Shown here one piece after another: positions 51,001 to 55,459 of a stretch of 64,000 bases of DNA. Every line of letters starts with the position of its first letter. Positions within the stretch are counted from its first letter, which is position 1. The notes under the pieces are model-generated. The model worked only from the letters and a program-made list of their open reading frames with translations. It ran no database searches and had not been told where the DNA came from. Source of the DNA: Halomonas sp. HL-93 (lineage in GTDB: Bacteria; Pseudomonadota; Gammaproteobacteria; Pseudomonadales; Halomonadaceae); assembly GCF_900086985.1 (NCBI RefSeq), contig NZ_LT593974.1, positions 1,364,001 to 1,428,000 on the forward strand, given 5' to 3'. The position numbers were made by a program, and so were the translations under genes.

Positions 51001-51412
51001 TCCCAATAAAACCTTTGTCACCGACCAATTGATCAATTGGTCGCTCTCCGACAATGTCACCCGGGTGGTACTGACTTACGGCGTTGCTCATGGCTCGGAT
51101 TTAGCCCTGGTACATCGTCTGTTGCGGCAAGCAGCGGATGAAAACGCCCGCGTGCTGGTGGACCCTGAGCCACAGGTGTTTTGCATGAGCTATGGTCCTC
51201 ATAGCCTCAATTTTGAGCTGCGTATTTTTGTTAATGACCTGCTTGACCGGTTGTTTGCTGCCGATGAGGTGAACTGCCGTGTAGACGCGCTATTCCGCGA
51301 GGCTGATGTGCGTGTTGCCTTTGAGCAAATGGATGTTTGGCTGCACCATGAGTCGGGTGAGGCCGTTAAAGTGGAAACGCTTACGCCGCCGCAAGGTCCG
51401 GCGAGTGGTTAG
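48080..51412 (+). CDS. mscK: mechanosensitive channel MscK/KefA type
   Basis: A 1110-residue inner-membrane channel that releases solutes on hypo-osmotic shock. It has a signal peptide, a long periplasmic coiled coil (about 30-440), about eleven membrane segments (505-950) and the MscS core near the C-terminus with the pore helix [31 protein letters not shown] and the beta domain [18 protein letters not shown]. The GTG at 48080 is preceded by GAGG (48067-48070). A large osmotic channel suits a salt-tolerant host. Its stop shares TTAG with the convergent tlyA. Confidence 0.94.
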   Translation: [1110 protein letters not shown]

Positions 51413-52167
51413 ACGGTTTTTTGTGCATAGAGCAGAAACTCGTGGTTACCGTCACCGCCGGTAATTGGGCTGATTTGCCAATGCGTGATCACTAACCCCA
51501 GTGCCTGACAGGTTTTGTGCAAGCGTTCCTCAACCTGCTGGTAATGAGCCGGATTGCGAACCACTCCCCGTTTATCCAGTGCTTTAGGGGTGAGCTCGAA
51601 CTGTGGTTTGACCAGTGAGATAAGCCGGCCACCGCCGGGCAGCAAGGCAGCTATCTCAGGCAATATCAAGGTTTGCGAAATAAACGATACATCCATAACC
51701 GCGACGTCAATGGGATGCTTAGCAAGCGCTCGTTGCAGAGCATTATCAGCGCTCATGGCGCGGCCATTGATGCCTTCCAGGCAGGTGATGCGGGGATCGC
51801 CACGCAGGCGAGCGTCTAGCTGACCATGACCGACTTCGACACCAATAACATGGCGTGCGCCAAAGTGAAGCGCGCAGTCGCTAAAACCACCGGTCGACTG
51901 CCCAACATCGAGCACGTTAAGGCCGTCAAGGCGAAGTGTCAGTGCGTTAAGCACTGCTTCTAGTTTGAGCCCGGCGCGAGACACATAACGTTCTTCGGGG
52001 TCGGGAGCAACGTAAAAGCTCGTCTCAACGGGCCACTTTTCGCTCGGTTTGGTCAACGGTGTGGTGCCCTCGGCAAGATAAACGCGCCCATGGCGAATAA
52101 GCCGCTGGGCGCGTGTGCGGGAGCTCACCAGCCCTTGGCTGACAAGTAGTTGGTCAAGTCGTGTCAT
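51409..52167 (-). CDS. tlyA: TlyA-family S4/FtsJ rRNA methyltransferase
   Basis: A 252-residue protein with an N-terminal S4 RNA-binding domain (MTRLDQLLVSQGLVSSRTRAQRLIRHGRVYL) and an FtsJ-type methyltransferase domain with NVLDVGQSTGGFSDCAL and VAVMDVSFISQTLILPEI. TlyA in actinobacteria 2'-O-methylates 16S and 23S rRNA; the family is often labelled hemolysin. Its start overlaps the stop of the preceding 680-residue gene by four bases (ATGA), so it is the distal gene of a three-gene operon with an ATP-grasp enzyme. Confidence 0.92.
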   Translation of the reverse strand: MTRLDQLLVSQGLVSSRTRAQRLIRHGRVYLAEGTTPLTKPSEKWPVETSFYVAPDPEERYVSRAGLKLEAVLNALTLRLDGLNVLDVGQSTGGFSDCALHFGARHVIGVEVGHGQLDARLRGDPRITCLEGINGRAMSADNALQRALAKHPIDVAVMDVSFISQTLILPEIAALLPGGGRLISLVKPQFELTPKALDKRGVVRNPAHYQQVEERLHKTCQALGLVITHWQISPITGGDGNHEFLLYAQKTV

Positions 52168-54206: not shown

Positions 54207-54235
54207 GGTGACTCCTTGTCCCGGTGGAGCGGGGA

Positions 54236-55459
54236 TTATACATAGAAGTCGAGATCTTCTTGATGTTTTAGTAGATCACGAAGGGTATGTGCATCCTCGC
54301 CCTTAAAGTAGACCAGCCCCCAGTGTGTGCCAAACGCGGTTCGTTTGGTAACGGTTTCTTCCATGGGCGCGGTCAGCTCGTGAGATTCGAAGTAGGGGTG
54401 ATCTTCGGTCTCTTCGGGAATTTCCAGGCGGCTGACCACGCGGCGGCGTGGATAAACACCGAAACAACCAGCAAAGCCGTCGGCATCCACCACTTCTTTG
54501 GGGAAAAATTCAGCGACTTCCTCGGCCGACGTTTTAGGGTCAAACACCAGCATGGAAGCCTGGTAGGCGTTAAATCCGTAAACGCGCTCAAGAAGCTCAA
54601 ATACCTTGAAACCAGGTGGCCGGTAGGCGACTTCGCCAAAGTACATTTCGCCATCGCTGGTGACAAAGTATTCCGGGTGAATCAGCCCAAAGTCGATATC
54701 GAAGGCCTTGATCAGCTTTTCAATTTGCGTTGTGATCTGCTCACGATATTTTTCAAGCTCAGGCGAGGCGGGAACGAAAACCGAATAGCCAAGCGTGACG
54801 TACTCTGAAATATTCAGAAACGCGATCTTGCCATTATGAACCCAGGCTTCAACGGCGAATTCCCATCCATCTAGGTGTGATTCCATTAATACCGGGAATT
54901 CTTCATCGGGGATGGTATCGACTTCGTCGGGGGTGCGAATGACTCGGTGGCCTAAACAGCCGGCTTTGTCGAATGCCTTGAGGTGGATCGGGTCGTTGGG
55001 GTCACCGTCAAGTTTAAGCAGCGTCTGGTTGACGCGCTTGAGAAAGCGAACAACGTCATCTTTATCGTGGGCTTCCTCAAAAATCCCCACGCGTATGCCG
55101 CCTAGCTGGGCGCGGCGCTTCATTAGCGCCTTATCGCGCAGTAGCAGCGACTGGCCGTATAGGCGTGGGTTATCAAGCAGCACAGAGTTGATTGCCCCGG
55201 CCCATTCCACTGTCTCTTCGTAGAGTGGAATAGCGACATCAACGCCTTTATCTTTTAGCGTTTCAGCAATTTCTAAAGAACGGTCATTTAAGCGTTCAAA
55301 ATTCCAAGGTACGTAGGGGATATCGTGTTTCTGGCAGTAGTCTTCTGCCCAATCGGGGGCCACCACGATGTAACGGCGATTAAAATTTTCTGCCGCTTCA
55401 ATGGCATTGAGGCTCCAGCCAAGTAGGGCGATATAGCCTTTGTTTGGATCCTTTTGCAT
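54236..55459 (-). CDS. ATP-grasp domain protein (carboxylate-amine ligase type)
   Basis: A 407-residue ATP-grasp enzyme; the fold makes an acyl phosphate and joins a carboxylate to an amine or thiol. The N-terminal pre-ATP-grasp Rossmann-like domain begins YIALLGWSLNAIEAAENF. The ATP-binding part includes LLKLDGDPNDPIHLKAF (about 147-163), the hinge VLMESHLDGWEFAVEAW (190-206) and the metal-binding GEVAYRPPG (275-283), the counterpart of E-x-N-x-R. The last 120 residues are family-specific. The ATG at 55459 has AAGGAG upstream. It leads the operon with the papain-like gene and tlyA. Substrate is unknown; carnosine-synthase-like and dipeptide ligases are distant relatives. Confidence 0.82.
   Translation of the reverse strand: MQKDPNKGYIALLGWSLNAIEAAENFNRRYIVVAPDWAEDYCQKHDIPYVPWNFERLNDRSLEIAETLKDKGVDVAIPLYEETVEWAGAINSVLLDNPRLYGQSLLLRDKALMKRRAQLGGIRVGIFEEAHDKDDVVRFLKRVNQTLLKLDGDPNDPIHLKAFDKAGCLGHRVIRTPDEVDTIPDEEFPVLMESHLDGWEFAVEAWVHNGKIAFLNISEYVTLGYSVFVPASPELEKYREQITTQIEKLIKAFDIDFGLIHPEYFVTSDGEMYFGEVAYRPPGFKVFELLERVYGFNAYQASMLVFDPKTSAEEVAEFFPKEVVDADGFAGCFGVYPRRRVVSRLEIPEETEDHPYFESHELTAPMEETVTKRTAFGTHWGLVYFKGEDAHTLRDLLKHQEDLDFYV

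Follow-up and report, generated by a model that had tools for sequence, protein, structure and literature searches.

The window analysed here is a 64,000-nucleotide stretch of the Halomonas sp. HL-93 genome, which is assembled as a single contig of 4.14 Mb. Its main subject is a pair of adjoining genes, one encoding an ATP-grasp ligase and the other a 680-residue protein that is called P680 below. The two genes almost certainly form a functional pair that works as one unit, and P680, as judged from its conserved residues and its structural model, can be regarded with high confidence as a papain-like cysteine enzyme. What the pair does is proposed more tentatively: it may be a cytoplasmic module that makes and breaks an amide or dipeptide tied to diaminobutyrate and ectoine metabolism, a reading that we hold at somewhat less than even confidence.

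Pairing of the ligase and P680 genes

According to the list of open reading frames in the window, three genes are tightly packed on the minus strand, in the order ATP-grasp ligase, P680 and TlyA-like methyltransferase:

54236..55459, minus strand: ATP-grasp ligase gene, first of the unit; 407 aa, ATG at 55459
52164..54206, minus strand: P680 gene; 680 aa from GTG; predicted papain/calpain-fold-like cysteine enzyme
51409..52167, minus strand: TlyA-like rRNA methyltransferase gene, a passenger; 252 aa; S4 and FtsJ domains
55466..55471, minus strand: AAGGAG, ribosome-binding-like stretch 5' of the ligase start
54212..54217, minus strand: AAGGAG, ribosome-binding-like stretch 5' of the P680 start

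The ligase and P680 genes are separated by 29 bases (54235-54207), and P680 overlaps the TlyA-like gene by ATGA, just as a preliminary description of this DNA had given the arrangement. The longest open frame of the ligase gene starts at a TTG and encodes 441 aa. Promoter and terminator scans at the locus returned chance-level matches only.

Adjacency of the ligase and P680 extends well beyond this genome, which bears out the pairing first proposed from this locus alone. Among 80 named loci, the ligase gene lies directly upstream of P680 on the same strand in 69 as counted by script and in 71 as counted by reading the rows; the script missed L062, which has an over-long start, and L101, which is cut by a contig end (G and L numbers denote the genomes and loci of this analysis). 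The nine named loci with no adjoining ligase belong by title to Halomonas or Vreelandella. When 370 genomes were drawn at the level of the class, P680 occurred in 16 of them and the ligase in the identical 16; in a draw of 397 genomes at the level of the phylum, both occurred in an identical set of 13. Together, the two draws provide 27 distinct positive genomes with 14 family labels, G000 and G005 being common to both. Within the genus, full-length ligase and P680 are found in 35 of 37 genomes, the host's included, with P680 of G016 split across two frames. The two exceptions are joint ones, as G024 has neither gene and G015 has remnants of both. Five genomes (G001, G007, G013, G014 and G025) have no intact ligase beside P680 and keep an unlinked copy. 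In addition, the distance matrix of the ligase correlates with that of P680, with r 0.88 across the 85 of 95 loci that have both (0 of 2000 permutations as high) and r 0.80 in the subset of 32 non-Halomonadaceae loci, a correlation that shared descent alone could also explain.

The third gene has a narrower distribution. Of the 80 named loci, 39 have a TlyA-like gene on P680's strand just downstream of it, and all 39 are Halomonadaceae by title. The encoded protein has clear S4 and FtsJ domains, and its score against the subfamily model TIGR00478 is a near miss (184.1 bits, cut-off 185.8). The preliminary description had placed all three genes in one operon, with the methyltransferase as "partner or passenger". 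The ligase and P680 remain from that proposal, but the TlyA-like gene is a passenger confined to Halomonadaceae loci, and this distribution does not support it as a partner of the pair.

Predicted properties of the two proteins

P680 had been called unrecognised, and no Pfam or NCBIfam family matches it at E<=1. Its sole match in the PDB by sequence is at chance level (E 0.75), and with a profile built from 64 rows the PDB yields no hit at E<=10. Scanned singly, none of 64 P680 members matches a peptidase family at E<=1, including the model of calpain family C2, and none has an EF-hand match in Pfam. At least 2734 relatives were found at E<=0.001 among the 8000 candidates scored, which is more than chance, and the closest named ones come from Vreelandella and Halomonas. 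Paralogues that are 52-56% identical and have no adjoining ligase occur at L031, L032, L035 and L036, and G055 encodes five full-length copies of P680 and one fragment.

The model of P680 divides into two parts, and four residues of the second part are proposed to be catalytic:

53112..54206, minus strand: N-terminal all-helical part, about residues 1-365 (model helices H9-30 to H351-359)
52302..53102, minus strand: C-terminal papain-like domain, about residues 369-635 (from fold-search rows)
53004..53006, minus strand: codon of Gln401, six residues ahead of Cys407; proposed to form the oxyanion hole
52986..52988, minus strand: codon of Cys407, proposed nucleophile
52512..52514, minus strand: codon of His565, proposed base
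52449..52451, minus strand: codon of Asn586, proposed triad Asn

The helical part has weak fold matches only, many of them to helical-repeat proteins. The modelled C-terminal part resembles calpain and papain cores with middling scores, as the fold search suggested earlier for this protein has now found: the 50 rows listed include 15 of calpain (calpains 1, 2, 3, 5, 8 and 9), 4 of the cysteine dipeptidyl aminopeptidase of P. distasonis, 2 of staphopain and 1 of another papain-type enzyme. Compared with viral models in Foldseek, nothing was significant (best E 0.077), with 3 of the 50 rows listed being papain-type or cathepsin.

Residue conservation was read from an alignment of 250 P680 sequences, which includes the window's own protein, its duplicate and many close relatives. 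Cys407, His565 and Asn586, which the preliminary description had picked out at the right positions, are invariant in it, and so is Gln401, which that description had not named. The Asn block proposed for residues 586-589 holds in part: Asn586, in the context N-P-N-x-x-x-x-Q-x-W-G, and Asn588 are invariant, but position 589 varies (235 Asn, 14 Arg, 1 Tyr). The conserved order Gln, Cys, His, Asn is that of clan CA, shared with calpain (C2) and papain (C1), the order and the roles of the residues being given in PMC4631099. P680 differs from those enzymes in the helical stretch, some 365 residues long, at its N-terminus, in addition to the missing Pfam peptidase and EF-hand matches.

The ligase is placed less sharply. 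It scores 27.5 bits against PF13535 (cut-off 27.0), which assigns it an ATP-grasp domain, and falls below every curated NCBIfam cut-off. As a single sequence it matches the L-amino acid ligase 4wd3 (E 9e-4) and the phosphoribosylglycinamide synthetase 4dim (0.003) in the PDB, whereas its profile ranks 4dim (0.004) before 4wd3 (0.006) and 3vot (0.015). The structural model is poor (predicted local distance difference test score 53.8), too poor for the active site to be read; in Foldseek it ranks RizA (4wd3) at the top with E 1.7e-11 and BL00235 next, followed by 4dim and biotin carboxylases, with BacD at rank 12. These matches suggest a ligase class near the L-amino acid ligases that probably joins amino acids. 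RizA, BL00235 (3vot) and BacD/YwfE (3vmm) are likewise ATP-grasp enzymes and provide the leading sequence and fold matches, but the similarity is weak (11-15% identity in the fold rows) and by profile no nearer than that to 4dim; the ligase here is also paired with a cysteine enzyme. The host genome has a second, unlinked ATP-grasp copy (G000:C1:204096-205313, equal to L160 9094-10401, minus strand), the N-terminal extension of which resembles that of a copy adjoining a P680 paralogue at L033.

Saline hosts, ectoine synthase and neighbouring genes

Named records with P680 include ones from Halomonas, Vreelandella, Billgrantia, Marinobacter, Alcanivorax, Halopseudomonas, Guyparkeria, Marinimicrobium, Haliea, Natronospira and Salinisphaera, and the ligase is also found in Alkalilimnicola and Methylomarinum. 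These genera are mostly saline or marine. Halomonas elongata, a species of ectoine production, has both genes (L099). Association of the pair with halophiles is very probable, and its hosts are Pseudomonadota of saline and marine habitats. The ectoine synthase EctC (PF06339) scored above its cut-off in 55 of the 370 class genomes, comprising all 16 pair-positive genomes and 39 of 354 pair-negative ones (Fisher p 7e-15, or 1e-9 by genus at E<=0.001; kinship lowers the true weight of both values). EctC is also present in G436, a pair-bearing genome from outside the class; within the 13 positives of the phylum draw, the EctC test covered G000, G005 and G436.

Neighbouring genes were compared at 63 loci from 48 genomes, mainly pair or P680 loci outside Halomonadaceae and second-ligase loci of the genus, with open reading frames shorter than 90 aa left out. 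No conserved third gene stands beside the pair in most of these loci; a tiny precursor peptide may still be encoded there, such short frames being outside the comparison. An amidohydrolase of the histone deacetylase (HDAC) family (PF00850) lies within 2.5 kb of the pair in 6 of the 48 genomes (G219, G286, G357, G422, G573 and L115, with at least four family labels), mostly with a gap no wider than about 100 bases. The G573 copy lies on the strand opposite P680, and in G422 an EgtD-like gene separates the amidohydrolase gene from the pair. G538 has an HDAC-family gene about 3 kb from a ligase. Partial-length HDAC-like matches of 33-40% identity, kilobases away from the ligase in Halomonas loci L058, L086, L089, L097 and L099, were not counted. 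At L220, P680, the ligase, an EgtD-like gene and an HDAC-family gene make up one same-strand run of four:

L220 1810-2784: EgtD-like S-adenosylmethionine methyltransferase gene (PF10017), between ligase and HDAC

The ectC gene adjoins the ligase or the pair in 4 of the 48 genomes, and none of the 80 named loci yielded an EctC. G038 (L034) has the order ligase, P680, ectC, with 1 base between P680 and ectC and a contig end that cuts ectC; G286 (L199) has the order P680, HDAC, ligase, ectC. In G025, ectC is convergent with the unlinked second ligase, and in G016 a frameshifted ectC lies beside the second ligase. The EctC of G286 is probably a genuine ectoine synthase as judged by sequence, because it is 91% identical to EctC of the ectABC cluster in G303 and is the sole EctC found in G286. 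None of these four loci is an ectABC operon as far as the fetched stretches reach: no EctA match and no close ectB were found in them, two of the stretches being short contigs and the G038 and G286 loci running to contig ends, and one of the four, L243, has only a remote class-III aminotransferase with 27% identity to EctB.

Other neighbours recur more loosely. An ABC-transporter ATPase is found 211-1939 bases from the pair in 7 of the 48 genomes, probably by chance for so abundant a family, and a patatin-like gene in 6 at looser distances. By eye, the P680 neighbour at L136 and L137 (two genomes) resembles a cation/proton antiporter subunit, and L200 9-3508, beside the ectABC of the window's own genome, encodes an alpha-glutamate-ligase-like ATP-grasp protein, a membrane protein that resembles an inactive transglutaminase, and a protease-like open reading frame.

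Elsewhere in the window, three tRNA-Asn genes stand in tandem at 14442-14756. The segment 58166-64000 has a GC content of 0.43-0.47, against 0.52-0.63 in the rest of the window, and encodes a SNF2/DEAD-like helicase (947 aa) as well as a divergent-AAA-like protein (415 aa); the gene of a type III Mod-like DNA methyltransferase crosses the window end. By eye, it looks like a defence island.

Proposed function and rival explanations

For the bond, its direction, the substrate and the physiological role of the pair, we infer the following. Enzymes of the ATP-grasp ligase class convert a carboxylate to an acyl phosphate, which is then attacked by an amine. In the manner of an L-amino-acid ligase, the ATP-grasp enzyme would use ATP to link an amino-acid-like substrate through an amide (peptide-type) bond. 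The thiolate of Cys407 in P680 would attack such an amide and form an acyl-enzyme, which would be released to water or to another amine; His565 would act as the base, Asn586 would orient it, Gln401 would form the oxyanion hole, and the helical part would be a scaffold in front. ATP-dependent amide synthesis is coupled to an amide-breaking cysteine enzyme also in glutathionylspermidine synthetase/amidase and in tubulin tyrosine ligase (TTL) with vasohibin. These systems differ from the pair in that no domain family common to both was found and in having other hosts and other neighbours, and the glutathionylspermidine amidase and synthetase models have no match in the ligase or P680 at E<=1.

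The product would most likely lie in the area of diaminobutyrate, N-acetyl-diaminobutyrate and ectoine within compatible-solute metabolism, with genes of the HDAC-type amidohydrolase and ectoine synthase as occasional neighbours. Such a substrate is the best guess because the closest recurrent neighbours belong to an amine-deacylating amidohydrolase family and to the N-acetyl-diaminobutyrate cyclase; as a claim of its own, this chemistry is possible but a little weaker than the make-and-break module as a whole. The available text of PMC5924519 and PMC6344544 reports that EctC of Halomonas elongata also acts on glutamine and on ectoine analogues, and chemical relatives are therefore plausible. 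A bolder version, for which the chances are slim, is a novel ectoine branch: the ligase would conjugate an amino acid or an acyl group with diaminobutyrate, N-acetyl-diaminobutyrate or ectoine, P680 would remodel or recycle the conjugate, and HDAC-type enzymes would trim it; an EctC copy would, in certain genomes, cyclise it to a new 2-substituted ectoine-like ring. The tagging pathway suggested in the preliminary description found no support. A carbamoyl-glutamine-amide or NAGGN osmolyte route is a further possible lead, although none of the papers listed names the solute and the available part of a review names the solutes with no genes like the pair.

Some observations weigh against a strict tie to ectoine. 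The pair is dispensable for ectoine synthesis: 39 of the 55 EctC-bearing class genomes do without it, and EctC is present in G024, the member of the genus that lacks the pair. Halophily may confound the association. Taken further, the two proteins could be salt-adaptation enzymes with separate reactions that halophiles both need, the ectoine link reflecting halophily only. The pair-negative genomes with EctC and the want of a shared third gene in most loci fit that explanation, but it is made unlikely by the matching occurrence of both genes in each of the two draws, by their joint loss within the genus and by their tight adjacency. An equally doubtful proposal is drawn by analogy with TTL and the papain-like vasohibins, the eukaryotic writer and eraser of a protein terminus: the ATP-grasp enzyme might attach an amino acid at the end of a protein, from which P680 might remove it. 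The large helical part of P680, with helical-repeat proteins among its weak matches, would suit a protein substrate, and genomes with several P680 paralogues could use them to recognise different proteins. The top-ranked matches of the ligase are, however, free-amino-acid ligases, no neighbour of the pair is widespread enough to point to a protein target, and the adjoining HDAC-type and EctC genes speak for chemistry on small molecules, though HDAC-family enzymes can act on proteins.

Papain-fold enzymes can transfer acyl groups, and phytochelatin synthase, which has a papain fold, uses glutathione. By analogy, the ligase might make a dipeptide and P680 join or mature peptides, in a natural-product or transpeptidase route to which the EgtD-like methyltransferase in the L220 run would lend itself. 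Such a route is improbable given that the list of open reading frames has no precursor gene in the 29-base gap (no dedicated small-ORF search was made, and the neighbour comparison began at 90 aa) and that the recurrence of the transporter ATPase is probably chance. Least credible of all is an anti-phage pair. Its patchy distribution over families would suit defence, but the pair is near-universal in the genus, where the intact local ligase is 92-96% identical across the compared loci. The best match of the pair to PADLOC models is at chance level (E 0.075) and no relatives were confirmed in viral contigs, which ruled this role out as a candidate.

The make-and-break module remains the preferred reading, and the pair appears undescribed within the literature searched, which mostly excluded subscription journals. 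No paper was found there that describes an ATP-grasp and papain-like pair in Halomonas, joins ATP-grasp with a cysteine protease in a two-gene operon, or treats histone deacetylase-like proteins with ectoine in Halomonas or a carboxylate-amine ligase with Marinobacter and salt; among the matches listed for ectC or ectoine synthase, none names ATP-grasp.

P680 represents a family of at least 2734 cysteine-enzyme-like relatives for which no Pfam or NCBIfam match was found, linked to a ligase in EctC-bearing halophiles. Should the two enzymes make and break a metabolite related to salt, the pair would reveal a missing part of osmoadaptation. The tested hosts of the pair carry EctC, as do hosts of the ectoine pathway (EctABC, DoeAB), and the function of orphan EctC is called unresolved in the available text of PMC5924519 and PMC6344544. 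The pair may offer a handle on the role of EctC proteins outside ectABC operons. The novel ectoine branch, if true, would mean a compatible solute or salt signal of a new class, and a pathway for some of these out-of-operon EctC proteins.

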